Source of the DNA: a virus
Length of the DNA: 34,930 nt
Strand: one strand, 5' to 3'
Virus record (IMG/VR): IMGVR_UViG_3300035183_000200
Span: 1 to 34,930 of that record
A program made the position numbers and the translations under genes. Below the pieces are notes generated by a model. That model ran no database searches. It was not told where the DNA came from and saw only the letters and a program-made list of their open reading frames with translations. This document shows, piece after piece, positions 1-34,930 of the stretch (its first letter is position 1; every line of letters begins with the position of its first letter).

Positions 1-34
1 AAAAAATGGAAGATTTTTAGATTTTTTAAAATGA
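1..34 (+). CDS. Partial 3' end of a lytic transglycosylase gene (second version)
   Basis: Reading in from base 2, the frame encodes KNGRFLDFLK and stops at TGA 32-34. These are the last residues of the transglycosylase encoded at 32971-33558, and the nucleotides are identical there. The window therefore starts inside a second version of that gene's end. Its stop overlaps the ATG at 31 in an ATGA joint, exactly as in the full copy. Confidence 0.7.
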   Translation, partial: KNGRFLDFLK

Positions 35-109
35 AAAAACAAAATAAGAATTGGGAAAAAGAATTTGATGAGAGATGGAGAAATTTTTCTAATAGAATTT
101 TTGAAATGT
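1..109 (+). repeat. Exact direct repeat of 33525-33633
   Basis: Bases 1-109 match 33525-33633 without mismatch. The first difference is C110 against T33634. Similarity then stays high to about base 200 and is lost. Together with the repeat 893-1019 = 34804-34930, this marks 1-892 as an alternative version of the segment that follows the transglycosylase gene. Confidence 0.85.
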
Positions 110-207
110 CTGCTAAAGGAGAGGATATAACTTGCGAAATAATAGGAAGTGGAGATCAGGTTAGAAATTTTATTCGCCAACTTCTTGTTCAAAAAGAAAA
201 AAGTTAG
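31..207 (+). CDS. Small basic protein, short version of the 33555 gene
   Basis: A 58-residue protein beginning MKKQNKNWEKEF and rich in charged residues, predicted helical. Through about residue 55 it is close to the 102-residue protein at 33555-33863, with substitutions such as F/S, G/C and K/Q. A stop then ends it where the other copy continues for about 45 more residues. Its ATG sits in the recurring A-rich joint and overlaps the upstream TGA, so translation is probably coupled. Function is unknown. It may be a truncated allele rather than a functional gene. Confidence 0.6.
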   Translation: MKKQNKNWEKEFDERWRNFSNRIFEMSAKGEDITCEIIGSGDQVRNFIRQLLVQKEKS

Positions 208-212
208 ATGAA

Positions 213-386
213 ATGAAAAAACAGAATAAAGAAATTACAACTATTGAGTTTGAGGGAGAATTACCAAAAGAAAGATTAAGCAATAAAGAAATGCAAGAAG
301 TTTATTGGAAGATGAGATATGAAGAATTATTAGCTTTTATTAAGAAGGCTAAAAAAAGAATGCATCAAAATGAAAAAACAAAATAG
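213..386 (+). CDS. Small protein of the variable island, unknown function
   Basis: A 57-residue protein that starts MKKQNKEITT and ends NEKTK. Both ends are encoded by copies of the same A-rich joint sequence. The middle is acidic/lysine-rich and probably helical. There is no Shine-Dalgarno sequence, and it starts 5 bases after the previous stop, so it is probably translated by reinitiation. Its last 17 bases overlap the start of the gene at 370 in another frame. I do not recognise the family. Confidence 0.55.
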   Translation: MKKQNKEITTIEFEGELPKERLSNKEMQEVYWKMRYEELLAFIKKAKKRMHQNEKTK

Positions 387-717
387 GGTAAAGTTTAAGT
401 TTGTGAACAATCCACACATATTTCTTGAGAAAAAAGAGATATGCAACAAAGATAATTGTGGCAATGTTCATTTATGGTTCAATAAAAGATCCTTTGGAAT
501 AGAAACATATGCGGTTTCCTTTATAAACTTGAGTCAATGGAGCGTTGAATATGGATGGTGCCTCGCAAAAGAAATTTGTATTCCAGAAAAAGGTTGGATA
601 AAAATGTTTATAGAGAGACTTGAAGACCCTGGCAGATTATCAGTAGAGTTTAGTAAAGAAGTTTGGGATGATATTTTTAGTGGGCATGAGAAAAACTGGA
701 AGCTAAATACATGGTAA
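370..717 (+). CDS. Island protein of unknown function, 115 aa
   Basis: A protein of 115 residues opening with MKKQN, the start shared by island genes. It contains cysteines around residues 25-30 (CNKDNC), a tryptophan-rich centre and no membrane segment. The length and mixed composition suggest a folded soluble protein. The start codon lies inside the joint whose other frame ends the preceding gene. No counterpart is present in the other version of the island (33555-34811), so it looks like exchangeable accessory content. I do not recognise the family. Confidence 0.65.
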   Translation: MKKQNRVKFKFVNNPHIFLEKKEICNKDNCGNVHLWFNKRSFGIETYAVSFINLSQWSVEYGWCLAKEICIPEKGWIKMFIERLEDPGRLSVEFSKEVWDDIFSGHEKNWKLNTW

Positions 718-926
718 CACAAAATTAAGATAAAGAGATAAATTAAAACTATAAGAGTTGGGGGGATTTTAAGTGGTTAATTAGAAAATAGCAGATGAAA
801 ACCTTAAAGAAAATATGAGAGAGCATCTAGAGAATTAGGCTAGAACTTTGGTTGGAGATACTTTCAGTTGAGTTTTAAAGGTATTTTTGAAGAAAAATGA
901 AAAAACAAAAGAAAAGGAGGTGAAGG
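718..926 (+). other. Gene-free stretch, probably decayed island sequence
   Basis: No open frame of convincing length is present. The last part, about 853-900, reads WRYFQLSFKGIFEEK and stops in the joint at 898-900. That faintly resembles the end of the 41-residue protein at 34686-34811 (LSFEFLGIKIVVWRKK) at the same place, so it may be a remnant of that gene. A strong ribosome binding site at 911-921 serves the next gene. Confidence 0.4.
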
Positions 927-1019
927 ATGAGAACTCGTTGCGCAAATTGTGGGATGATTTATGACATACCAGTGAGTGATATGGATATGAGAACTCCATT
1001 ACAAATAGCTCAATCAGGT
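893..1019 (+). repeat. 127-bp exact direct repeat, copy 1 (matches 34804-34930)
   Basis: Identical base for base to the last 127 bases of the window. It covers an A-rich joint, the ribosome binding site and the first 31 codons of the zinc-ribbon gene. An exact 127-base overlap ending at a contig end is typical of an assembly overlap of k-mer length, so the molecule is probably circular or terminally redundant here. Confidence 0.9.
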
Positions 1020-1142
1020 ATTTGTCCTAAATGCGGAAGTAATGCTCATAATCCTATGCCTGTTAAATACTCAATTACATTTGAGGAGCAAAATGAAAAA
1101 AACAAAATAAAGGAGGTGAAAGGGAATGATTCAAAGAATTAA
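927..1142 (+). CDS. Small zinc-ribbon protein
   Basis: 71 residues with two CxxC knuckles (C5/C8 and C33/C36), the usual layout of a four-cysteine zinc ribbon that could bind nucleic acid or protein. The start is well set: a strong AAAAGGAGGTG lies 5 bases upstream of ATG. The last 20 residues run through a joint copy with seven A instead of six. With six A the protein would end at NEKTK; the extra base extends it to KGNDSKN and into the start of the next gene. The first 31 codons recur at the window end. Partner and role are unknown. Confidence 0.75.
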   Translation: MRTRCANCGMIYDIPVSDMDMRTPLQIAQSGICPKCGSNAHNPMPVKYSITFEEQNEKNKIKEVKGNDSKN

Positions 1143-5831: not shown

Positions 5832-6165
5832 CGCAATACCAATTTCAAAATCGGGAATTTTTGCGGCTATTCAAGACTTAAAGGAGAGCCGCGAAGAAGA
5901 GTCGGAGGAAATTAAAAGAGAAAAGAAAATTGCGGGGTTGGCGACAACTGAGGGCTGGCAGGAATTGAAAAAAATAATTGAAGCACGAATTGAAAGCGTT
6001 TTGTCTTTTGGACGGGAGGTTGACCCTCAATTGAGTGTTGAGGCGATAGGGTTTAAGTATATTGCCTCAAGCTTAATAGCTGAAGAGTTAAGAAACATTA
6101 TTAACATTGTTGAACAAGTCTATGAATCAATCCAACGGCGAAATCAAGAGCGGGGAGAGAAATAG
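5818..6165 (+). CDS. Head-region protein of unknown function, 115 aa
   Basis: 115 residues, acidic to neutral and strongly helical: EESEEIKREKKIAGL, then GWQELKKIIEARIESVL, then a helical end IINIVEQVYESIQRR. AGGAGG at 5804-5809 inside the end of the portal gene gives a good start. It lies between portal and scaffold. Proteins at this place often help prohead assembly or carry protease or scaffold roles, but no catalytic motif is visible here. Unrecognised. Confidence 0.65.
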   Translation: MEDNNAIPISKSGIFAAIQDLKESREEESEEIKREKKIAGLATTEGWQELKKIIEARIESVLSFGREVDPQLSVEAIGFKYIASSLIAEELRNIINIVEQVYESIQRRNQERGEK

Positions 6166-9715: not shown

Positions 9716-10273
9716 ATGGCAACTTTTACTTGGACAGCACAATTAACTACAGGAACGCTTACGATTGGCTCAACCGACAAGGTTGGTTTTTATGGTACAA
9801 ACTTTGGAGATGCTATTACTGTCAACTCCTATCAGGACTCAACTCATATCGAAAATTCCTCTGGAACGCACCAATGCACAAGCAATCACGTTAACAACAC
9901 CAAATATCTAACTTCCACAACCGTTTCTATTAACGGCGGTAGTTCTCAAACTCTCGGTGCATCAGTTCCAACAACCGCCCAGTGTCCGCTAAAGATTAAC
10001 TTTTCTCATACTTCAGCCGTTGCCACCTCAAATGGCAAATTCTGGGCTGATAACGGAAGTGATGTAAATACTGCACCAACTGATGTAACTTTTCAGGCTG
10101 GGGAACAATCTAATACAAGCTGGACATCGGCTGGAGGAAAAACAAATGCCGTTGCTCTTGCCAACCAATCATCGGCAACCTCACACGACTTTTACATCTT
10201 TTGCTCGGCATCGCCAACAGCAGTCGGAGACAAGACGGCGTTTAGGTTGGGAATTGAGTTGACCTATCAGTAA
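9716..10273 (+). CDS. Beta-rich virion protein, 185 aa
   Basis: 185 residues, rich in Thr, Ser, Asn and Ala with few charges, as in surface-exposed phage structural or decoration proteins. It starts MATFTWTAQLTTGTLTIGST, contains GGSSQTLGASVP and KFWADNGSDVNTAP, and ends KTAFRLGIELTYQ. Two cysteines (HQCTSNH and AQCPLK) could pair. AAAGGGGGTG lies just upstream of ATG, suggesting abundant synthesis. A minor capsid, decoration or fibre-associated role is inference. Confidence 0.65.
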   Translation: MATFTWTAQLTTGTLTIGSTDKVGFYGTNFGDAITVNSYQDSTHIENSSGTHQCTSNHVNNTKYLTSTTVSINGGSSQTLGASVPTTAQCPLKINFSHTSAVATSNGKFWADNGSDVNTAPTDVTFQAGEQSNTSWTSAGGKTNAVALANQSSATSHDFYIFCSASPTAVGDKTAFRLGIELTYQ

Positions 10274-10274
10274 T

Positions 10275-10478
10275 ATGGAAAAAGATAAAGTTTATACAAT
10301 TAAAGAGGTCCTAGATTTAGTTGAAGCCGATAAGAAGTATTACAAAATGGCGGGTAAAGGATTGGTTGTCGGTGGTATTAACGTGGCTGACCTTGAACAG
10401 ACTATCAGAATTCCCGAAAGTGCTGAAAAGTTAGTTATCTTTGCACCTGAACTAGAACCTATTGAGATAGAGCTTTAG
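10275..10478 (+). CDS. Small acidic protein, 67 aa
   Basis: 67 residues starting MEKDKVYTIKEVLDLVEADK, then KMAGKGLVVGGINVADLEQT, ending with an acidic strand-like tail. No enzymatic motif is visible. It begins one base after the previous stop, so coupled translation is likely. It is followed by a small hairpin and the 10500 gene. Unrecognised; probably a virion or assembly accessory protein by position. Confidence 0.6.
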   Translation: MEKDKVYTIKEVLDLVEADKKYYKMAGKGLVVGGINVADLEQTIRIPESAEKLVIFAPELEPIEIEL

Positions 10479-11738: not shown

Positions 11739-12713
11739 ATGGCATTTCAGATAGACACTTTCCAAAATGATGCCTTTCAAGTGGAAGGCGGAGCTGTCGT
11801 TGTTGACAACCGCAACGCAAGAACTAAAGGAGTAGACACAATCTCCAATAGTAGAAATGCCAGAATTAAGGGATTAAGTACGACCAGTGATACTAGGAAT
11901 GCCCGTATCAAAGGGGTTGCAACGACATCCGATACAAGGAACGCAAGAACGAAAGGGGTTGCGACAACATCAGACAACCGCCCCGCTAGAACTAAAGGAA
12001 GCCTCACCACATCGGATACTAGAGGAGCAGGAACCAAAGGAATTGCAGTAGCAACAGACAATCGTCCTGCTAGAACAAAAGGTGTAGCTACTATTTCCGA
12101 TACAAGGAGCGCTAGAACAAAAGGTGTAGCTACGGTTTCCGATACAAGGGACGCAAGGATAAAGGGTACTGCAACCGACTCCGATATGAGAGGTGCGAGG
12201 ATTAGGGGTTATCTTACCGCAGTAGATACTAGAAATGCCCGGACAAAGGGGGTAGCCACAGCTTTAGACACAAGAAGCGCAAAAACTAAAGGTCAGGCGA
12301 CAACATCAGACACAAGAGCGGCTAAAACTAAAGGAGTTAGTGTCAACATAATTTCAGATAGCAGAGATGCACGCACAAAAGGTTTGGATACTTTATCCGA
12401 CAATAGGAGTGCGAGAATTAAAGGATTTGATATTGCCGGAGAAACCAGAAACGCAAGAACCAAAGGTTATCTTACAACTTCAGATACAAGGGACGCTAGG
12501 ATAAAAGGTAAATTTACAGCATCAGATTTTAGAGATGCACACACCAAGGGAAGTGCGATAATTTCAGATACAAGGGGAGCAAGGTTAATTGGAGCAATTG
12601 CAAGTTATCGAAATGCAAAAGTGAAGGGGCCGGAAGTTACTTTTCCCAAATTCATTTTTGTTGATGGAAAACTAGCAATTCATCTTTTTGGCAAATTTTA
12701 TTCTAAAAGATGA
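11739..12713 (+). CDS. Fibre-like protein built of 14-residue repeats
   Basis: 324 residues: a short head (MAFQIDTFQNDAFQVEGG), about 20 tandem units from residue 21 to about 300, and a 24-residue tail ending FGKFYSKR. The unit consensus is TSDTRNARTKGVAT, with D/N-x-R-x-A-R/K-x-K-G nearly invariant; one unit is 16 long. The strongly basic, glycine-phased repeats suggest a beta-solenoid or fibrous shaft. I recall similar repeats in metagenomic proteins of uncultivated bacteria and phages, but cannot verify it. Position among tail genes suggests surface adhesion. The stop overlaps the next ATG (ATGA). Confidence 0.75.
   Translation: MAFQIDTFQNDAFQVEGGAVVVDNRNARTKGVDTISNSRNARIKGLSTTSDTRNARIKGVATTSDTRNARTKGVATTSDNRPARTKGSLTTSDTRGAGTKGIAVATDNRPARTKGVATISDTRSARTKGVATVSDTRDARIKGTATDSDMRGARIRGYLTAVDTRNARTKGVATALDTRSAKTKGQATTSDTRAAKTKGVSVNIISDSRDARTKGLDTLSDNRSARIKGFDIAGETRNARTKGYLTTSDTRDARIKGKFTASDFRDAHTKGSAIISDTRGARLIGAIASYRNAKVKGPEVTFPKFIFVDGKLAIHLFGKFYSKR
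11799..12638 (+). repeat. About 20 x 42-bp coding repeat
   Basis: Each unit encodes 14 residues. At DNA level the units are strongly diverged in codon use while the R, A, K and G positions are kept, which points to old duplication under protein-level selection rather than recent slippage. A few neighbouring units are nearly identical, so exchange between units probably still happens. Confidence 0.85.
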
Positions 12714-15508: not shown

Positions 15509-18500
15509 ATGGCAACGCTTACAGATTTACTCAACAAAGTAAAAAAGACTATTAAAGATTATACTCCGCTTGATGAGATAGCTTCTTCTGTTGAAAACTA
15601 CTTTAATCCTACTTCTAATCAGGGACAAAACTTTTGGAGCACGCCCGTTGCACAAAGGTTGGCAAATCTTCAACTAAACACCCAGCCAATGGTTCAGCCC
15701 ATCTTAAATACTCTTCGTGAGGGCGGAGAGGCTTTTGCTAGAGCGGGTGTATATACAAATCCATTAAATCCTATTTTTAACAGAAAAGAGTGGGAAAAAA
15801 CTGCACCTAAAAAGGGAGACATTGGTAAGATGACAAGGGGACTTTTAACCGCTTACGGTTTAACAAAACCCACAACTGTTTTAGGGGGAGGACTATTTTC
15901 TGCTGGGTTTAATACTCTTGCTAATCTGGTAACCAAAAAACCAATTACTCAAAATCTACCTGAAAGCATTGGCGAGGGAGCACAATTTGGAGCTTTAGTT
16001 TCACCATTGGGAGAGGCTGCCGCTTTATTACCAGTAAGGGGACTTGCTAATTTGACTTCAAAACCAGTTCTTCAAAGAATTTTGCCTGAGGTAGCTAAAG
16101 AATTTGCTACGGGGGCTGGATATGGGGCAGCGACAGAACAAAATCCTATTAAAACTGGGTTAGAATTTGCTCCCTTTGGTCTTACAGGGACAATGGTCGG
16201 GAAAACTGGAGTTAAAGCTATGGCGGATTTTAAAAATCCCGTCCATCCTGAAGATAAGGAAGAGATTTTAAAAGCTATCGACATTCTTACAAGCAAAGAT
16301 CCGAAAGTGTTTATTGAGAAGGCTGCGGAAGCGGGAAAAACATTAAGGTTGCTTGCCAGCCACTATATCGATGCAAGGTTCGGCAAAAAGGCTCCTATTA
16401 GAGATGTAATGGAAGAATTGTTAAATAGGTTAAATTATGATTATGGTTATGATTTTACATTGGGGTTTGTAGAAAAGACAGCTCCTCGTGTTGGTGAAAC
16501 CCTAACCGCCAAAATTCTTAAAACTGGTAAAGAATTGACAGGAACAGTTAAAAAGATAGCCAGAATGCCAACTGGGGCGGTAATGGCACAACTTGAGACC
16601 GCAGCGGGCAAGACAAGATGGATACCGGTTTCAAAATATGCGGAGTGGTATAAGCCAGTAGAAAAAGCAGTAGAACAAGTAGCGGGAAAAGTAAAACCAG
16701 AAATTTCTAAAGAAAATTTAATGCAAGATATTAGAAACACGATTATGGATAATTTGGGAAGTAATTATAGTAAAGATCAATTACAAATGGTTCAAATGAT
16801 AGATCAGGGGTATTCTAAATCTCAAATAAAACAATATTTTAAAGAGAAGCCAGAGAGTTGGATTGATAATTCTTATAAGAATATTAAAGATGATTGGAAT
16901 AATTTACAGAAAATTGTAAAACAAAAAGGATTAAATAGTGTATCTGAATTAATTTTCAAAACAAGAAAGGAAATTGGACAAGTAGAAAATCGCTATATTC
17001 AAGCCATTCAAGAAATATCTCAACCGAAAACAGAAGTAAAACCAGAAATTCCTAAAGAAAGGGGGATAAAAGAAAAACCAGAAATTAAAACAATCCCTCC
17101 TGAACTTGAACCCCTAGCCCAAGAAGCAAGGAAATACAAGAGTGCGGAGGAGTTTGTAAAAAACTATTCTAAAATTTTTGATGATTTAATGGAAAAAGGA
17201 ATTATTGGCAGAGGAGCAAAGTATGATAGTTATGAAGTTGGACAATCTTTGATAAAACAATTTGGGGGAGGTAAAAAGGGACTTATCGACTTCTACGCCC
17301 AAGCCATTAAAGGAATACCAGAAGTTAAACCAGCAGAACAAGTAGTAGAAAAAGTTAAAACAACTATTCCTCCTGAACCTGAACCATTAGATAAAATAGT
17401 TAATGATTTTTTAACAAATAGAAAAAGTGGGACAGAATTGACAAAAATTCTAAAAAGTAAAGCATCAGAAACTAAATTTTTACCAAGGGAACAAAAAGCA
17501 TCAATTACGCTTTATCACGGAGGTTCAATAAATGATTTAAATTCTGTATTAGAAAGGGGATTAGATACTAGTAAAGTTCAATGGGCTACTGGTTCAAGAA
17601 GAAATGTAATTTCTTTAACACCAGATTTTAGTTTAGCTGAACGATTTGGAAAAGCAGGGCATTTAAATAGACAATTAGCAATGCCAGAAAGTGGAAAACC
17701 AGCAGTTATTTACAAAATGAAAATTCCTATTGAAGATTTATTCCCAGATACTCATCAGATAAATAATGCCAGATTGTGGAAAAAAGTTGACGCCAAAAAT
17801 ACTCTTGGTGATAGTTTAATTCACGGAAATGCGGTTGTCGTAAAAAATAAAATATATCCTACTGAAATAGAAAGTGTTTTTATTTGGGATAGTAAAATCG
17901 GAGATTATAAAGAAATACCATTTACAAAACAAGCAATTCAAGATTTCTATAACCAAGCCACTAGTGGAACTGGACAAAGAAGATTGGCAAAACAAGCGTT
18001 AGAACAGATACAAGCAGGGGGAGAAGTTACAAGCCGTAGCCAATTGCCTTCCCAAGAGTTACCATCACCCAAATCAGAGCAATTAACCCAATCACAAACT
18101 TCACCACTTCCCAAAGAGCCTGTAGGAATAGCTGAAAATAAGACTCTTCCATCGCAACCAATTATACCAGAGGGTTTCAAGGAAAGAGGGGTAATGAGAA
18201 CTATAAGGACATCTGAAGCAACCCCGCCAGAATTAACAAAAGAAATTGAAAAAATTACTGGCTCAACCAGATTTTACAGACCATATTCCGATATTGCTTC
18301 TCTTAAGGAAGCAAAATCAAGAATTGCCGCAGAAGGGGTTGACAATGTTAAGAAAGCTGTTCTAGAAGGTGAATACTCCAAAGGAAATGTAGCGGCTGGT
18401 GAGATTTTGGTTTCGAAAGCCTTAAATGAAGGAAGAATTGACGAAGCAACGGAGATCATTAAAAATCTTTCTCTTAAAGCAACTCAGGCTGGACAGGCAA

Positions 18501-21569: not shown

Positions 21570-23540
21570 ATGCTTAATGTCAATTATAAACCAAACACAA
21601 GGGTTAAAGAATTGAACATTTCTCTTACTTCGTTCAAGAAAGGGACAAATACTCTTTTGGACGAAACAAGGCTTGCGCCCGATATGAGTAAAGAGTCTAT
21701 TAACCTTATCTTGGAACAAGACGGGCTTTGGAAACCACGCTGGGGAACAGCAAAATATGGCAATGCTATATCAGGCGAGTCTTCAATTCTTAATGCCACC
21801 TCTTTTGTTAAGAGCGACGGGACAAGTGAGTTAATTGCCGTTGGAGGAACAACGGGTAAGATTTTCAAATCTACAGATAATGGCAATACTTGGACACAGA
21901 TTGGGACAACCACTCTATCAACAACAGCTACCCCCTATTTTTTGCAAATCGCCGACAATCTTTACATCACAAACGGAGTAGATAATCTTCTAAGGTACAA
22001 CGGCACAACACTTTCTACCTACTCTCAACTATCAGCTCCGACTGGCGTAACTCTTACTCGTGGGTCAGGACTAACATCGGGTAGTTATACTTATTATTAT
22101 CAAGTTACTGCCTTAAATGAGATTGGGGAAACAGTTGGTTCTACAGAAGCATCAATTACAACAAATAAAGATAGAGATACTTGGGTTGCAACCTCAAACG
22201 AGCATATAGATATATCTTGGTCTGCGGTAACAGGCGCTGTTCGTTATCAGATTTATTTTTCCGATGCTTCAGGATATGAGAATTTACTTGACTCAACACC
22301 TAATACCTCTTACAGGGACAATGGGAGCGCAACCCCTAATCCTTATGTTTTTGTCCCACTTGACAACACCACAACCGCACCTAAATTTACTCATATGGAG
22401 TTGTCGGGGAATAGAATTTGGGCAACAAAAGACCCCAACAATCCTTACCGAGTGTATTTTTCGGGCTCTGGTAAGTATTTGTCCTATTTTTCGGCATTCT
22501 TTGGCGGTGGGTGGGTAGATTTGGAAAAGGGCGGTAAAGATAAACCCATTGCCGTCAAACACTTTAGGACTGGTAAGGGGGATAGTGCTTTGACTGTTTT
22601 TTGCTCAAACCCTGAAGGGACGGGTTCTATCTGGCATATAGGACTAGATAGTGTTACGGTTGGTTCCACTTCTTTTGTCGTTCCAACCGCTTTAAAGATT
22701 TTATCTGGAATTGGAATATCATCACCAACTGGGGCGGTTTATGCACAGGACAACATTTACTTTGCCAACCAAAAGGGTGTCTTTATTCTTGGCTCAAAGC
22801 CTCAACTGTTTAATATCCTCTCAACATCTGAATTTTCTGTGCCCATTAGACCATCATATAGAAGTCTAAAAAGCTATGACAAAATCTTCGCTTATTATTA
22901 TGAGGGTAAAGTATTCTTTTCAGTTAGTCGTTCAAGCGATAACGATACCCTGATAATTTATGACACGGAACGCAACGCCTGGATTTATTACTGGGATTTG
23001 AAAGTTAAAACATTTTTGGAATATACGGACACTTCTAACAATTCTCATCTTCTTTTCGTCTCACCTAACAAAAACTACTTAGTAGAATTGTCAAAAAACT
23101 ATGCAAGCGATGAGGGGAGTCCTATTTACACATCTTATTATTCTCCTCTTATACTGCTCTCGTCTGATAAAAGACAATTTGTTAAAATTAATGATGTGAT
23201 TTTTGAAGTGGGCAGACCAGTTGGGAGCATTACCGTTGAAACACTGGGGATTGAGGAGAAAAAAGGATTTTCATCTGTGGGCACAAAATCAATTAAAGAT
23301 ACGGTCTCAACCATTGATTTTGCTAATGCTTTGTGGGGAGATTTTGCTTGGTCGGACGACGATGATGTACCAAAAACCTTTTCGCAGGCAACAGTTAAAA
23401 AGAGACTTAAAATTAGGAAAAAGTTGTCGCATATTCAATTTAGGGTTTCGTCAAATATGGCAAACGCCGACTGGACGCTTCTTGGTATTCAGGCGTTCGG
23501 ATATATTACGAGTTCAAGAATACCATCAAGTTGGAATTAA
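21570..23540 (+). CDS. Tail nozzle-like protein with a fibronectin III-like insert
   Basis: 656 residues. The N-terminus (VKELNISLTSFKKGTNTLLD, SKESINLILEQDGLWKPRWG) is typical of podovirus tail tube/nozzle proteins with a beta-propeller-like body. About residues 150-250 look like a fibronectin type III domain (SAPTGVTLTRGSGLTSGSYT, ISWSAVTGAVRYQIY). The remainder has repeated beta blades (GAVYAQDNIYFANQKGVFIL, YDTERNAWIYYWDL). It would extend from the adaptor ring as the tail tip, and the FN3-like part may contact the cell surface. Confidence 0.75.
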   Translation: MLNVNYKPNTRVKELNISLTSFKKGTNTLLDETRLAPDMSKESINLILEQDGLWKPRWGTAKYGNAISGESSILNATSFVKSDGTSELIAVGGTTGKIFKSTDNGNTWTQIGTTTLSTTATPYFLQIADNLYITNGVDNLLRYNGTTLSTYSQLSAPTGVTLTRGSGLTSGSYTYYYQVTALNEIGETVGSTEASITTNKDRDTWVATSNEHIDISWSAVTGAVRYQIYFSDASGYENLLDSTPNTSYRDNGSATPNPYVFVPLDNTTTAPKFTHMELSGNRIWATKDPNNPYRVYFSGSGKYLSYFSAFFGGGWVDLEKGGKDKPIAVKHFRTGKGDSALTVFCSNPEGTGSIWHIGLDSVTVGSTSFVVPTALKILSGIGISSPTGAVYAQDNIYFANQKGVFILGSKPQLFNILSTSEFSVPIRPSYRSLKSYDKIFAYYYEGKVFFSVSRSSDNDTLIIYDTERNAWIYYWDLKVKTFLEYTDTSNNSHLLFVSPNKNYLVELSKNYASDEGSPIYTSYYSPLILLSSDKRQFVKINDVIFEVGRPVGSITVETLGIEEKKGFSSVGTKSIKDTVSTIDFANALWGDFAWSDDDDVPKTFSQATVKKRLKIRKKLSHIQFRVSSNMANADWTLLGIQAFGYITSSRIPSSWN

Positions 23541-29957: not shown

Positions 29958-30230
29958 ATGGAGGACTTAATTGACGAGCTAAATCAAATTTTAACAGAAT
30001 ATGGTTTTGCTATGAGATGGGACGAGGTTGTAATGTGGCATAAGGTAGGGGAGATTTTAACCCATACAAATATAAGACCTTCTCAACTTGGGGAGCTTGC
30101 CGACATTTTAGAAATAGACGAGGGGGATTTGTGGGACGCAATTCTTTTCTACAAGAAATTCCCCGATCTAAACTTGCTTCCTGAGGGTAAAGATGTAAGT
30201 TGGGGTAAAATAAAAGAAAAATATTTATGA
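29958..30230 (+). CDS. Small protein of the replication group, 90 aa
   Basis: 90 residues from ATG 29958 (99 if the upstream GTG 29931 is used). The sequence EDLIDELNQILTEYGFAMRW, then RPSQLGELADILEIDEGDLW and FYKKFPDLNLLPEGKDVSWG, resembles the N-terminal region of DUF1016-like proteins, which are helical and linked to DNA enzymes. Here it stands alone without a nuclease domain. The stop overlaps the next ATG by 4 bases, so it is probably co-translated with the HNH/NinG-like protein. Confidence 0.65.
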   Translation: MEDLIDELNQILTEYGFAMRWDEVVMWHKVGEILTHTNIRPSQLGELADILEIDEGDLWDAILFYKKFPDLNLLPEGKDVSWGKIKEKYL

Positions 30231-30730
30231 GACTTAAAAAGTGCGTTAACTGTCTTCAAAAAAAGAAATGCCCTTATAAAAAGGGTAAAAAGTATTTTTG
30301 TTCAAAAGAATGTAAAACAAACTATTATGAAAACCATATCCCTACCCTCTTAAAAGAAATTCAAAAAGAATTTAATAAGATGATAACTGAAAACCAACCC
30401 TGTGCAGTCTGCGGTAAAAGATTTGAGAAAATGCAATGTTCGCATATCTGGAGCATAGGTTCGTCTCCTTCTATAAGGCTAGATATTCTCAATGTTCTCC
30501 CGATGTGTGGTCATTGCCACAATTTCTGGTGGCACTTAGAGCCGATGCAATCTCACGATTGGTTTGTCTCAAGATATCCTGAAAGAGCCACATATCTTGA
30601 ATTTGCGAGACACCAAAACAAGCCTTGGACAGCAGAGGAGCTTCATCAAATCAGAAGAGCCATTAGGGAGAAAGATTTTCAATCTCTTATCAGATTTAAA
30701 AAAGAATGGTTGCAATCCAAAAAATCCTAA
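30227..30730 (+). CDS. NinG/HNH-like zinc protein
   Basis: 167 residues. A first zinc knuckle (C6, C9, C25, C29; KKCVNCL and FCSKECK) is followed by a helix and a second zinc-HNH region: CAVCG (59-63), CSH (71-73), N89, CGHCHNFWWH (94-103). The order Cys-pair, His, Asn, Cys-pair-His is that of NinG/Rap-type recombination proteins and related HNH nucleases, which cut branched DNA. A role in recombination during replication fits the position between the helicase and the early regulators. Length is near that of NinG proteins (about 200) but a little short. Confidence 0.75.
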   Translation: MRLKKCVNCLQKKKCPYKKGKKYFCSKECKTNYYENHIPTLLKEIQKEFNKMITENQPCAVCGKRFEKMQCSHIWSIGSSPSIRLDILNVLPMCGHCHNFWWHLEPMQSHDWFVSRYPERATYLEFARHQNKPWTAEELHQIRRAIREKDFQSLIRFKKEWLQSKKS

Positions 30731-30861
30731 ATAGATTACAAAAACCCTGCAAACTTTGCGGGGAGTATTTTTTTTACGGAAATTCCAAAAGGCTTTATTG
30801 TGTAAATTGTGATTCAAAAAAATACAAATACCAAAAGAAAAAAGTTGACAAAACTAAATAA
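30706..30861 (+). CDS. 51-aa zinc-ribbon protein
   Basis: Overlaps the end of the NinG-like gene in another frame. The frame from ATG 30706 gives MVAIQKILNRLQKPCKLCGE and a second pair CVNC at residues 32-35, followed by a Lys/Tyr-rich tail ending KVDKTK. Two CxxC pairs 14 residues apart form a compact zinc ribbon. It could bind DNA or act as a regulator. No Shine-Dalgarno sequence is visible. The stop is inside the promoter of the next gene. Confidence 0.5.
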   Translation: MVAIQKILNRLQKPCKLCGEYFFYGNSKRLYCVNCDSKKYKYQKKKVDKTK

Positions 30862-30880: not shown

Positions 30881-31066
30881 ATGAAATTACTTACACCCGC
30901 TCAAGTCGCAAAAATTTGTGGAGTTAGCAGAATGACTGTTTATCGTTGGATGCGGTCTGGCAAGCTCCCCTACCAAACTCTTGGAAAACATTATCCTAAG
31001 TTGATCTACGAAAAAGACATTCCTACTTTTTTGAGGCGAAAATTGCCTCTTGACAAAAAAGTATAA
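30881..31066 (+). CDS. Helix-turn-helix regulator, MerR/excisionase-type
   Basis: 61 residues: KLLTPAQVAKICGVSRMTVY then RWMRSGKLPYQTLGKH is the HTH_17/MerR-like helix-turn-helix plus wing used by excisionases and small repressors. No integrase is present, so excision is unlikely and a transcription regulator is the better call. It has its own consensus promoter and no ribosome binding site, so it may be the first early protein made. Its end encodes part of the -35 of the next promoter. Confidence 0.8.
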   Translation: MKLLTPAQVAKICGVSRMTVYRWMRSGKLPYQTLGKHYPKLIYEKDIPTFLRRKLPLDKKV

Positions 31067-31842: not shown

Positions 31843-31907
31843 TTGTCTTTTGAGAAGGTGGGGTGGTACTTACTGCCCCATCCTCTGAGGAGAAAATAAA
31901 GTTAAAT

Positions 31908-32966
31908 ATGAAAAATCTAACTTGGAGTTTTGGACAAATCTGGAACGAAAGTCTAAAGGAAGCTCGTCAACCAAGAGAGCCTCAAGCAAGAGATGTTATA
32001 TGGGCTTCAGAATTAGGTAAGAGTTATCTTGATTTGTATTTGGCAATGAAAGGAGAAGAACCCTCCAACGATTTTTCAGATACTGCCCTTCGCAAGTTTG
32101 ATGCGGGAATAATCTGGGAAAAGATAATAGAAGTTATCCTTAAAAGAGCCGGCATTTTACTTGAGACTCAAGAATGGCTGAAAAACCAAATAGATGGTTG
32201 TATTCCTGTAACAGGCAAGCTAGATTTTCTAGTTGGCGGCAAAACGGACAAAGAAAAAGCTAGGTTTGAATTAGAAAAGATAAAAGACATCTTACCTGAA
32301 AACGTTTACAATGCCTCTCTCCGCATAATTGATTCTTTGCCCGACGAAATCAACCAGATTGTCCTTGAAATCAAATCAATCTCATCTTTTATGTTTGACA
32401 AATACCAAACTTCAGAAATTCCTAACGCCAATCACCGCTTGCAACTTATGCACTACCTGATTTGCAAGAACCTCCCCGAAGGGCATATAGTTTATGTCTC
32501 AAAAGACGACGCAAGACTTTTGGAGCTGGGGGTTTTTAATCCCTCCGCAGTAAATGGAGAATATGAGAAATTTATTAAAGAATTTTCTTCCTACTGGAAC
32601 GCTGGTCAAGAGCCGCCAAAAGAAAAAGAAATCGTATTTGATGACGAGTGGGGCAAGTTTGTAGTTAACTGGAAAGTTATGTATTCCCGCTACCTCACCA
32701 AAATCTACGGATATAAGGATCAAGAGGAAGTTAGAACTAAATTTGAACCCCTTGTTGCCTCGTGGAATAGGGTTCTTACTAGGATTAAAGACAGGAAAGA
32801 GATGACCAAAGATAATCTAGAAAAAATCAAGGAAATGGAAAAATGGGGATTTTCTCATATAGTTGAGAGGCGGGGTGGAGACTCAAAAGAGTCCCGACCC
32901 CGTTCTGACGGCGGGGACGAAATTTTCCTCACCCGAGGGCAGCGGGTAGCTCGTCCCGCCTCTTGA
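31908..32966 (+). CDS. PD-(D/E)XK nuclease, RecB/Cas4-type
   Basis: 352 residues from ATG 31908; a GTG at 31863 would add 15, and neither start has an ideal binding site. Catalytic residues are visible: D106 (GKLDFLV), E154-x-K156 (IVLEIKS) and the RecB-family QxxxY motif Q179-Y183 (RLQLMHY). Between D106 and E154 is a helical insert. Such enzymes are phage exonucleases for end processing and recombination, and would pair with the OB-fold protein upstream. The last 33 residues (from about ERRGGDSKE) are encoded by a GC-rich double hairpin and look like an added tail. Confidence 0.8.
   Translation: MKNLTWSFGQIWNESLKEARQPREPQARDVIWASELGKSYLDLYLAMKGEEPSNDFSDTALRKFDAGIIWEKIIEVILKRAGILLETQEWLKNQIDGCIPVTGKLDFLVGGKTDKEKARFELEKIKDILPENVYNASLRIIDSLPDEINQIVLEIKSISSFMFDKYQTSEIPNANHRLQLMHYLICKNLPEGHIVYVSKDDARLLELGVFNPSAVNGEYEKFIKEFSSYWNAGQEPPKEKEIVFDDEWGKFVVNWKVMYSRYLTKIYGYKDQEEVRTKFEPLVASWNRVLTRIKDRKEMTKDNLEKIKEMEKWGFSHIVERRGGDSKESRPRSDGGDEIFLTRGQRVARPAS
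32866..32963 (+). repeat. GC-rich double-hairpin element at the nuclease 3' end
   Basis: Arm 1: CGGGGT (32871-32876) with ACCCCG (32897-32902), enclosing GACTC/GAGTC with loop AAAA (32880-32893). Arm 2: GCGGGGACGA (32911-32920) with TCGTCCCGC (32951-32959), one bulged G, enclosing ACCCG/CGGGT (32931-32947). The ends AGAGGCGGG and CCCGCCTCT (32955-32963) are also complementary over 9 bp. The element is far more GC-rich than its surroundings and stays open in frame, like a palindromic element that entered a gene. Confidence 0.75.
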
Positions 32967-32970
32967 CCAT

Positions 32971-33558
32971 ATGAGAAAAATTAACCTAAACAAAAGAAGA
33001 ATTAGTTTGAAAATTAAGCTAGCGGTCTTAATCGCCATTCTAATAGCCCTTCTGGCTTCACTAAATCAATTAGCAAAGGCGATTACTCGCTGGTTTGATA
33101 CTTATACCGTCCAATGGAATCAAGTCCTTTCTATAACAATTAAGCCGCCTTTTGAGATTAAAAAGCGGGAAATCCCAGCCGAAAGAGTAATAGAGGTTGT
33201 AGAGAAGATACCAGAGCCCCAAGACTTAAAAACTGATATAGAGAAATACATTTACGAAAAGTGGGGAATTGAAAATTACAAGCTGGCTATATCAATTTTT
33301 ACGGCGGAAAGCGGGCTGCAGGAGGATGCTTGGCACATAAACAGCAACGGCACAATTGATTATGGAGTAGCTCAAATCAATTCTGTAAACTGGAAGTTAG
33401 AAGGATGCTCGCTTAAGGAGATAGTTTTTGCGAAGGGTAATCTAGACTGTGCCTATAAGCTTTGGGATAGAGCCAATGGTATTGAAGGAGACGGGATAGG
33501 AAGCTTCAGGGCTTGGAGCGTAGCAAAAAATGGAAGATTTTTAGATTTTTTAAAATGA
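32971..33558 (+). CDS. Membrane-anchored lytic transglycosylase
   Basis: 195 residues. A basic start (MRKINLNKRR) and one membrane segment (about 14-34, LAVLIAILIALLASL) are followed by an external linker. An SLT/lysozyme-like domain follows with catalytic glutamate E113 in IFTAESGL and the motif DYGVAQIN (130-137). It cleaves the glycan strand of peptidoglycan from the outer side of the membrane. It lies far from the lysis genes, beside the nuclease, so it may serve wall remodelling during takeover rather than final lysis. Its last 34 bases recur at 1-34. It ends in an ATGA joint. Confidence 0.8.
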   Translation: MRKINLNKRRISLKIKLAVLIAILIALLASLNQLAKAITRWFDTYTVQWNQVLSITIKPPFEIKKREIPAERVIEVVEKIPEPQDLKTDIEKYIYEKWGIENYKLAISIFTAESGLQEDAWHINSNGTIDYGVAQINSVNWKLEGCSLKEIVFAKGNLDCAYKLWDRANGIEGDGIGSFRAWSVAKNGRFLDFLK

Positions 33559-33633
33559 AAAAACAAAATAAGAATTGGGAAAAAGAATTTGATGAGAGAT
33601 GGAGAAATTTTTCTAATAGAATTTTTGAAATGT
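33525..33633 (+). repeat. Exact direct repeat of 1-109
   Basis: Matches 1-109 base for base. It covers the last codons of the transglycosylase gene and the first 26 codons of the following small gene. It is the point where the two versions of the variable island begin to differ. Confidence 0.85.
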
Positions 33634-33863
33634 TTGCTAAGGGAGAGGATATAACTGGCGAAATAATAGGAAGTGGAGACCAGGTTAGAAATTTTATTCG
33701 CAAACTTCTCGCTCAAAAAGAGAAGGTGGTAAAAGAGAAGCAGGAAGAAATAAATAGGCTAAATAGGTTTATTACTCGTGCGATTGGAGCAAGTCCTAAT
33801 GGGTATGTTCCTTGCGATTATTTAAAGCTTGGATTATCAGCGAAAAATGAAAAAACAAAATAA
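33555..33863 (+). CDS. Small island protein, 102 aa (full version of the 31-207 gene)
   Basis: 102 residues from ATG 33555, overlapping the previous stop. It begins MKKQNKNWEKEFDERWRNFS, has GEDITGEIIGSGDQVRNFIR, a coiled-coil piece KEKVVKEKQEEINRLNRFIT and ends NEKTK inside the next joint. About 55 N-terminal residues match the protein at 31-207. The longer frame upstream (from 33513) is rejected because it runs through the transglycosylase codons. Function unknown; it is the only island gene present in both versions. Confidence 0.7.
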   Translation: MKKQNKNWEKEFDERWRNFSNRIFEMFAKGEDITGEIIGSGDQVRNFIRKLLAQKEKVVKEKQEEINRLNRFITRAIGASPNGYVPCDYLKLGLSAKNEKTK

Positions 33864-34263
33864 AATAAAATTCAGATTTTGGCATACGAAGTTGAAAAAA
33901 TGGCTCAAAAATTGTGCCGTTGCCAACGATGGCAAGGTGTGGGATCTGACTACAAATGAGGAGGTCAAGGATGTAATTCCTCTCCAATTTACTGGTTCAA
34001 AAGACAAAAATGGCAAAGAGATTTATGAAGGAGATGTTGTGTATTGTAATTCTTGCGAAGAAGACGATAATGGGGGCGTTTTCAGGGTCGTATGGGGATA
34101 TTTTGAAGATTGTTGCGTCGAAGGTGAGACTTGGGTTTTAGATGGTCTCACTTGGGAGCAAACTGTCTATTACCATTCTCTAGAAAAGGACATAGAAGTT
34201 GTTGGTAATATTTATGAAAATCCCGAACTACTAACTAAACTAAGGAAAAATGAAAAAAATTAA
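33847..34263 (+). CDS. YopX-family protein
   Basis: 138 residues from ATG 33847. It has the YopX pattern: a basic N-terminal strand region (KIKFRFWHTKLKKWL), then LQFTGSKDKNGKEIYEGDVV near residue 50, a variable middle with several cysteines, and VVGNIYENPELL near the end. YopX proteins are common small phage and plasmid accessory proteins of unsettled function. Both ends lie in joint repeats, so it behaves as one cassette of the island. The N-terminal MKKQNK is given by the joint rather than by the family. Confidence 0.8.
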   Translation: MKKQNKIKFRFWHTKLKKWLKNCAVANDGKVWDLTTNEEVKDVIPLQFTGSKDKNGKEIYEGDVVYCNSCEEDDNGGVFRVVWGYFEDCCVEGETWVLDGLTWEQTVYYHSLEKDIEVVGNIYENPELLTKLRKNEKN

Positions 34264-34471
34264 GTTTGACAAGAAACATTTTAGAAAACTACTCCGCAAT
34301 GGAGATATTAAAATTCTTTTGGATAGAGTAGAAGAACGGGCTGAAGCAGAAGCAAGGCTAAAAGAAATAGAGGCGATTTATCCTTCTTTGGTGGGAATTG
34401 CCGAAGATCAATGGGAAATCAATATAAACGTTCCGAATGGAACTTGGACTTTTCTGGCTAAAAAGAATTGA
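34250..34471 (+). CDS. Island protein of unknown function, 73 aa
   Basis: 73 residues: MKKIKFDKKHFRKLLRNGDI, then a helix RVEERAEAEARLKEIEAIYP and a beta-like end INVPNGTWTFLAKKN. The start overlaps the YopX gene by 14 bases in a degenerate copy of the joint. No motif recognised; present only in this version of the island. Confidence 0.6.
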   Translation: MKKIKFDKKHFRKLLRNGDIKILLDRVEERAEAEARLKEIEAIYPSLVGIAEDQWEININVPNGTWTFLAKKN

Positions 34472-34477
34472 ATCAAA

Positions 34478-34681
34478 ATGATAAAACAAATGATACAAAT
34501 AGACAATAAATACATACCTTATCGGTGGAAGGAAACCCTGATTAAAAATCAAAAGATCGGCGGGGTATTTCTAGTCTTTCTGTCGGGAGAAAATCGTGCC
34601 GAAATACAAAAGAAAGTAAAATTACTAAAGCAATTTTGTAAAAAAATTTATATGTATGGTAAAAACGAAAAAACAAAATAA
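34478..34681 (+). CDS. Island protein of unknown function, 67 aa
   Basis: 67 residues: MIQIDNKYIPYRWKETLIKN-like start, then GGVFLVFLSGENRAEIQKKV and a basic end with KKIYMYGKNEKTK. The C-terminus is supplied by a joint copy whose ATG has become ACG, so it no longer opens a downstream frame. A small alpha/beta protein is likely. Unrecognised. Confidence 0.55.
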   Translation: MIKQMIQIDNKYIPYRWKETLIKNQKIGGVFLVFLSGENRAEIQKKVKLLKQFCKKIYMYGKNEKTK

Positions 34682-34685
34682 AACT

Positions 34686-34811
34686 ATGAAGTGGAAAGCA
34701 TCCTTTAGTTCTACTGATACTCTTAAGAATTGGACAAGCGGGGGCTATTATAAATGTTTGTTAAGTTTTGAGTTTTTAGGAATTAAAATCGTTGTTTGGA
34801 GAAAAAAATGA
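34686..34811 (+). CDS. Very small island protein, 41 aa
   Basis: 41 residues reading MKWKASFSSTDTLKNWTSGG, then YYKCLLSFEFLGIKIVVWRKK. The stop TGA overlaps the ATG of a joint copy at 34808. That joint opens only an 8-codon frame running into the ribosome binding site of the zinc-ribbon gene. A degenerate relative of its last 15 codons appears at about 853-900 in the other version. No ribosome binding site; call is tentative. Confidence 0.45.
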   Translation: MKWKASFSSTDTLKNWTSGGYYKCLLSFEFLGIKIVVWRKK

Positions 34812-34930
34812 AAAAACAAAAGAAAAGGAGGTGAAGGATGAGAACTCGTTGCGCAAATTGTGGGATGATTTATGACATACCAGTGAGTGATATGGATATG
34901 AGAACTCCATTACAAATAGCTCAATCAGGT
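34804..34930 (+). repeat. 127-bp exact direct repeat, copy 2 (matches 893-1019)
   Basis: The last 127 bases of the window equal 893-1019. If the molecule is circular, sequence after 34930 continues at 1020, giving a map of about 33.9 kb (893-34803). Confidence 0.9.
34838..34930 (+). CDS. Partial 5' end of the zinc-ribbon gene (copy of 927)
   Basis: The first 31 codons of the gene at 927-1142, identical in sequence and with the same AAAAGGAGGTG ribosome binding site, cut by the window end. It most likely is the same gene seen again because the map closes on itself. Confidence 0.85.
   Translation, partial: MRTRCANCGMIYDIPVSDMDMRTPLQIAQSG

Follow-up and report, generated by a model that had tools for sequence, protein, structure and literature searches.

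It has long been asked whether short boundary sequences guide the mosaicism of phage genomes, or whether breaks arise at random and are selected afterwards. The question is raised anew by a locus in IMG/VR virus record IMGVR_UViG_3300035183_000200, which was analysed in its entirety (34,930 bp; hereafter the window). An 18-bp sequence with the consensus AATGAAAAAACAAAATAA, herein called the joint, recurs at the boundaries of small genes, or cassettes, that form an array flanked by a lysozyme-like gene on one side and the terminase genes on the other, and its occurrence in the window is confined to that array. The form ATGAAAAAACAAAATAA is present exactly at positions 31, 33555 and 33847 and with one mismatch at 213, 370, 897, 34665 and 34808, and the copy at 1093 carries one additional A. 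Site 34250 (ATGAAAAAAATTAAG), which differs at 6 positions, is a weak copy, and site 34478 (ATGATAAAACAAATGAT) is degenerate to a comparable extent. When up to three mismatches are allowed, the window holds 10 matches to the joint, where 1.6 are expected and the maximum in 100 shuffles was 6, and none of the 777 other ATG triplets of the window comes within three mismatches of it. A degenerate joint-like sequence (TTGACAAAACTAAATAA, 30845-30861) lies outside the array, where it closes ORF 30706-30861 as VDKTK and a stop; this may be a chance resemblance or an old joint.

The joint is also carried by seven further IMG/VR phage contigs, namely G001 (3300010938_000092), G002 (3300003892_000011), G003 (3300010938_000161), G004 (3300003891_000030), G008 (3300005573_000432), G014 (3300035183_000214) and G015 (3300031749_000019), of which those numbered 3300010938 derive from a Chocolate Pots hot springs sample. 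The resulting set of eight contigs is metagenomic, its members are not all closely related, and several end inside arrays. Backbone genes are common to the window, G002, G003, G008 and G014, and fewer are common to G001. An array bounded by a lysozyme-like gene and the terminase region is likewise present in G002, G003, G014 and G015, although the lysozyme assignment in the last two rests on inspection only. Contig L125, whose small terminase is 92% identical, has no joint array beside that gene, and thus not every member of the group has the array. No close relatives were found among cultured phages, and when genome contigs were scanned with the small terminase, the only match (43%) was on an Omnitrophota MAG contig that lacks an array, so the host is unknown.

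Given that the repeat is of low complexity and that its flanks are about 50% A, it could be argued that A-rich start-codon context and chance produce the pattern, or that assembly chimeras do so, particularly since these are metagenomic contigs and several terminate within arrays. An exact 19-mer search of IMG/VR returned 77 stretches, only four of which had more than one copy, and all four sit in contigs tied to the joint group by other searches. Among the other loci with the exact 19-mer, 68 of 72 lack a second copy within two mismatches; of the four that have one, two (L026 and L070) proved to be further joint-array carriers. Only 4 of the 5,892 ATGs outside the arrays of the eight joint-bearing contigs fall within three mismatches of the joint, and two of those are gene starts in a second, smaller array, located on the other strand in G001. 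Several independent samples yielded the same cassettes and joints, their proteins are conserved, and assembly k values mostly exceed the length of the repeat (they were 21-127 in a sister study of a vent pool, PMC6137239). Chance and A-rich context are ruled out by the match counts, the 19-mer loci and the absence of the signal from the other 777 ATGs of the window, and we regard this alternative as a whole as all but excluded. The second array of G001 (22323-22802, minus strand) consists of two joints that start genes encoding MKKQNKTPKQ... and MKKQKIYLKL....

The organization of the array in the window can be followed from the left flank, with all features on the plus strand. A Cas4/RecE-like exonuclease gene (31863-32966; phrog_1706, phrog_434 and phrog_1990), a candidate recombination function, lies just left of the array. 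The lysozyme-like gene that follows (32971-33558) ends at the TGA within the ATGA of the first joint, an exact copy at 33554-33571. Cassette F1 (33555-33863), which encodes a 102-aa protein of the DWEKEF family with homologues elsewhere in G003 and G015, finishes with NEKTK and a stop inside the next exact joint (33846-33863). The latter opens cassette F5 (33847-34263), a YopX-family gene (Pfam PF09643, E=1.6e-16) whose homologues in G002 and G014 have other neighbours, and which reads NEKN and a stop at the degenerate joint ATGAAAAAAATTAA (34249-34263). A 73-aa cassette of unknown function (34250-34471) precedes another degenerate joint with four mismatches (34477-34494), which begins the 67-aa cassette F8 (34478-34681). 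F8 ends in NEKTK and a stop at the ACG variant of the joint (34664-34681), and it shares 82% nucleotide identity with G003 10148-10341, the similarity ending 1 bp past the joint. A 51-aa cassette (34656-34811) then terminates at the TGA of the last joint at this end (34807-34824), which is accompanied by an AAGGAGG leader.

The left end of the window begins with what is evidently the same locus. The joint at 30-47 is the equivalent of that at 33554, and the cassette that it opens (F1', 31-207) is a shortened allele of F1; positions 1-200 and 33525-33724 are 96% identical and then diverge. This allele continues with a one-mismatch joint (212-229), the 57-aa cassette F3 (213-386), which ends in NEKTK and a stop and is present in the left allele only, the TAG variant of the joint (369-386), and a 115-aa cassette of unknown function (370-717). 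A homologue of F3 at G003 10631 also starts at a joint. No convincing ORF is evident in 718-895, ahead of the next joint, and this segment is possibly a cassette remnant. The joint at 896-913, again with an AAGGAGG leader, is the same site as 34807-34824, and positions 893-1019 are identical to 34804-34930 over exactly 127 bp. It leads to cassette F2 (927-1142), a zinc-ribbon-like CANCG...CPKCG protein that recurs at different places in G003 and G002. The array concludes with a joint carrying an A7 run (1092-1110), where the upstream frame is shifted to NEKNKIKEVKG..., and with a conserved gene (1126-1662; phrog_4652) that has 99% amino acid identity in G003. A structure predicted for the product of this gene was of low confidence (pLDDT 52) and was set aside.

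Thus, positions 31 and 33555 represent one site seen twice, positions 897 and 34808 represent another, and the ends of the window overlap as two alleles. One reads lysozyme-F1-YopX-34250-F8-34656-F2 and the other F1'-F3-370-remnant-F2; both reach the same F2 cassette, and their divergence lies 3 bp before the F2 joint. The natural interpretation is that the map is circular and that the population contains two cassette arrays. Because 127 was the largest metaSPAdes k in the sister study (PMC6137239), the overlap resembles one from an assembly graph, which is a possibility only, given that the assembly settings for the window itself are not known.

Some of the properties of the joint derive from its reading frames. 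The ATG frame (ATG AAA AAA CAA AAT) encodes MKKQN, and one base earlier the sequence encodes NEKTK and a stop. The joint therefore opens one frame with its ATG, closes a second with the TGA of the ATGA overlap, and closes a third with the TAA that follows NEKTK. In the window, NEKTK and its stop truly end genes only at 386, 33863 and 34681, and both the lysozyme gene and ORF 34656 stop at the TGA. Across 38 joints in six contigs, NEKTK-type and ATGA endings each account for roughly a third, some genes stop a few bases earlier, and two joints in G001 (17721 and 19161) are in-frame fusions. In the A5 and A7 variants the NEK frame is displaced, which makes the upstream protein longer. On the downstream side, the ATG frame of the joint at 897 yields only an 8-codon leader, after which come a Shine-Dalgarno sequence and, at 927, the true gene; a Shine-Dalgarno leader likewise comes after the joint at the F2 copies. 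A cassette bounded by two joints carries its start, and usually its stop, with it, irrespective of the genes beside it. Translational coupling along the array through the overlapping stop and start would be consistent with this arrangement, but it is inferred.

These findings bear on several statements in the initial annotation. Its description of a repeat at gene joints was confirmed with respect to sites and frames, including the MKKQN and NEKTK readings. Its list of ten sites held in part, in that two pairs are the same sites counted twice, 34250 is weak, and 34478 was missing. Similarly, its assertion that NEKTK and a stop end the upstream gene describes one way only, since ending at the TGA of ATGA is roughly as frequent. 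The proposal that both neighbours stay in frame holds in the broader form of a joint that closes two upstream frames and opens a third, and we therefore consider the joint a broader frame adaptor for which the MKKQN and NEKTK description is only one case.

Whether cassettes have moved can be assessed by comparing what lies between joints in different phages. Array proteins were clustered after their joint residues had been masked, and seven families (F1, F2, F3, F5, F8, F11 and F14) were found in at least two contigs. The lysozyme gene is followed by F1 in the window, by F2 in G003 and by another cassette in G002, where the lysozyme-like genes are 85% (G003) and 77% (G002) identical to the window copy. 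Likewise, the YopX cassette is preceded by F1 in the window, by a cysteine-rich cassette in G002 and by F11 in G014. No family-to-family adjacency is common to two phages, whereas the backbone to the left stays collinear. Differences within cassette bodies are concentrated at codon position 3, and thus the cassettes are real genes. In G014, a gene that is located between joints (17332-18369) encodes a DNA methyltransferase (phrog_363), and so the cassettes are not all tiny genes of unknown function.

A pairwise comparison of the flanks of 46 joints gives the same picture. Homology was limited to the left flank in 15 pairs and to the right flank in 17 (including one that pairs the two alleles of the window), and the single pair with homology on both flanks again represents these two alleles. 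Between phages, 31 joint pairs share one flank and none (0/31) shares both. For ordinary gene starts in the same genomes, both flanks were homologous in 75 of 130 cases, the left alone in 27 and the right alone in 28. The difference is nominally significant (Fisher P of 2e-10), although this value is indicative only because the pairs are not independent and the window's alleles were sometimes counted twice. The association of breaks with joints is not absolute. Mosaic breaks without joints occur at 55 of 130 backbone gene starts, some G015 cassettes lack joints, and homology ends away from a joint at the left end of F8, at the left end of the G003 11504 tail, and in a C-terminal segment of F3 that is common to G008.

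Cassettes have thus been shuffled from joint to joint between phages. The initial annotation had suggested that the genes lying between copies be compared in related phages, and this check was positive, with the same cassettes found in other orders. It had also stated that a conserved gene order, or absence of the joint from relatives and a resemblance due to A-rich start context alone, would refute the idea; in the event, gene order varies, relatives do have the joint, and it is not a general A-rich start context. Its claim of an integrase-free exchange is supported by the reordering of unrelated cassettes, by homology that breaks at the joint, and by the lack of an integrase or transposase among the scanned genes. 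As that annotation acknowledged, homologous recombination and translational coupling are still inferences.

More precise evidence for the position of the exchanges comes from individual junctions. A 218-bp segment comprising F2 and its joints has 97.7% identity in G003 and G002; it begins and stops at joints, and the DNA beyond it is unrelated, whereas these two phages are about 85% identical in the core there and about 86% in their lysozyme genes. Between G001 and G002, which are distant phages, F14 shows 84% identity, and both of its ends lie at joints. Two joints are hybrids. That at 34798 in G002 has the left flank and TATG of G003 11570 and, on its right side, the GGAGGAATAAAAATG of G003 9440. 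That at 16901 in G014 combines the left flank of G003 11265 with the TAG and right flank of G002 33613. Because polymorphisms internal to the joint accompany one neighbour or the other, the crossovers can be placed inside the 18 bp.

The conservation of the joint is restricted to about 20 bp. Both lysine-codon wobble bases are A in all 32 aligned copies, whereas gene bodies use AAG for 24% of lysines. Since these wobble bases are invariant while cassette bodies differ at third positions, it appears to be the DNA or RNA that is conserved rather than the peptide, although this evidence is supporting and not decisive given that related copies are not independent. A protein-level MKKQN/NEKTK signature as the main cause is ruled out by the frame differences, the A5 and A7 shifts and the invariant wobble bases. 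Homologous genes can also end in different frames, as with F14, which ends in KSK and a stop in G001 and in KNEKTK and a stop in G002.

On the basis of these observations, we propose that the array serves as an exchange locus in which each cassette is a single gene and a short coding joint is repeated between cassettes. Cassettes would move between phage genomes, and within one population, via crossovers inside the joint, and these would occur by homologous recombination or single-strand annealing on 18-24 bp. The RecE/Cas4-like exonuclease beside the array perhaps assists the exchange, and annealing or template switching between joints during phage replication, helped by such functions, is in our judgement the most likely mechanism, which remains an inference. 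To the left of the exonuclease gene lie a small unassigned protein just before it and then an SbcD-like exonuclease and a NinG/Rap-like HNH protein. The overlapping stop and start are predicted to couple translation along the array. Taken as a whole, cassette exchange by crossover in the coding joint is likely the best explanation. What is shown is that the same cassettes occur in different orders, that homology ends at joints on both sides, and that joint-internal markers follow one neighbour; recombination was not observed directly, and the mechanism and coupling are inferred. It should be noted that the joint is short for RecA-type recombination and that no annealing protein was identified.

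The main rival to annealing holds that the joint is a selected signal for translation initiation and coupling, and that illegitimate recombination occurs anywhere but leaves as survivors only those recombinants that have breaks at gene ends and a functional signal, which would make breaks seem to coincide with joints. The joint is indeed located at start codons, upstream genes stop at or just before it, and mosaic breaks without joints occur elsewhere in these genomes. A-rich codons after the ATG are known to favour initiation. Moreover, illegitimate recombination near gene boundaries is a usual explanation of phage mosaicism (PMC3029335). Against this alternative, the other ATGs of the window all lack the signal, breaks fall within a few bp of an 18-bp joint on both sides, and markers within the joint segregate with the flanks. 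In addition, upstream genes end in different ways, and so the end peptide is not under selection. We consider this rival unlikely, with the hybrid joints and the sharp two-sided ends opposing it, but a contribution is not excluded.

A second rival would make the joint the site of a site-specific recombinase or homing nuclease, such that the cassettes are integron-like or driven by a nuclease. In its favour are the single-gene cassettes, the directional repeat, the frequent reordering, and the HNH (NinG/Rap-like) gene at 30227-30730. However, PHROGs and Pfam scans of the main window genes (not every very small ORF was included) revealed no integrase, resolvase or transposase, and the sole integration-related match was an excisionase-like/MerR-like HTH protein at 30881-31066. 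No nuclease was recognised in any window cassette. The joint contains no inverted repeat, and none of three joints examined folds more stably than shuffled sequences, which rules out a hairpin or attC-like structure. We therefore view this rival as very unlikely, and exchange apparently proceeds without a dedicated recombinase. No promoter- or terminator-like match coincides with the joint on the plus strand of 32900-34930 (sigma-70 scan only), and no tRNA or Rfam element was found.

Returning to crossover in the joint, a bolder reading, towards which we lean only slightly, is that the recombination site is itself a universal reading-frame adaptor. In this reading, 18 coding bases would allow cassettes to be spliced in any order, and to be translationally coupled, without a promoter, terminator, ribosome-binding site or integrase.

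Several known systems share features with the joint. The promoter early stem-loops (PeSLs) of T4-type phages, which are mobile regulatory cassettes and a proposed recombination site (Arbiol et al. 2010; Comeau et al. 2014; via PMC4503421, PMC3950731), are also short repeated elements between accessory genes, dense in an intensely shuffled region, and the joint similarly lies at the ends of shuffled accessory genes. PeSLs, however, are composite promoter-terminator motifs with a stem-loop, whereas the joint has neither, occupies 18 bp inside coding sequence, and has as its regulatory content a start codon and two stops. The boundary sequences of lambdoid phages (PMC3029335) are short sequences shared at module boundaries that were proposed to guide homologous exchange, and the joint likewise is common to different phages exactly where homology switches. 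Exchange there is attributed to homologous recombination functions, which for the joint are only inferred from the adjacent RecE/Cas4-like exonuclease; moreover, a single joint sequence serves a whole array and several different genomes, and forms part of both neighbouring genes.

The SAS/ESAS elements of cluster K mycobacteriophages (PMC3203893) are repeated, short and directional, and they occur at the starts of small non-structural genes of unrelated families and are absent elsewhere. The 13-bp SAS (GGGATAGGAGCCC) has an AGGAG Shine-Dalgarno core and lies 3-7 bp upstream of the ATG, whereas the joint contains the ATG and first codons, lacks such a core, and has exchange evident at the element. 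In haloarchaeal virus HGTV-1, a conserved motif with a suggested role in shuffling precedes most ORFs of one genome arm (PMC3950731), but it comprises a TATA-box-like region and an inverted repeat and is located ahead of ORFs rather than inside them. Integrons also carry single-gene cassettes in an ordered, changeable array, but the joint is coding, no integron integrase (a tyrosine recombinase) was found among the scanned genes, and there is no attC-like fold. Shuffling at boundary repeats is therefore already known, and what is new here is a dual-frame coding joint without a promoter, stem-loop or Shine-Dalgarno core. A published description of the same joint is not excluded, as our literature search was limited to open-licence PMC papers. 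Regardless, one sequence marks nearly every array boundary across several genomes, with internal markers that localise crossovers, and an 18-bp part thus makes it possible to test directly whether boundary sequences guide mosaicism. For frame-safe gene assembly, too, the coding design would be a natural precedent.

Two additional repeats were observed in these genomes. A G-rich array with a period of 5 (GG[T/C]NN; 17-19 GG per 20 units) lies beside gene 1126, whose family (phrog_4652) is of unknown function, in each of the four contigs that have this gene, namely at 1674-1862 of the window, about 12150-12345 of G003, about 866-965 of L013, and 5860-6000 and 6540-6700 of L014, where it is present on both sides of the gene. 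The corresponding count was at most 9 in every other joint-group or neighbouring contig tested and in control loci without gene 1126. Pseudomonas phage LESphi2 carries a distant homologue of this gene, and a period-5 stretch is also present about 400 bp upstream of it but is weaker (14 per 20). The gene and array possibly constitute a linked unit, the function of which is unknown. Finally, internal diverged repeats (65-79% identity) at 11817-12588 lie within ORF 11739-12713 and are also repeated at 21.6-22.6 kb of G002, and this ORF might encode a repetitive fibre-type protein.
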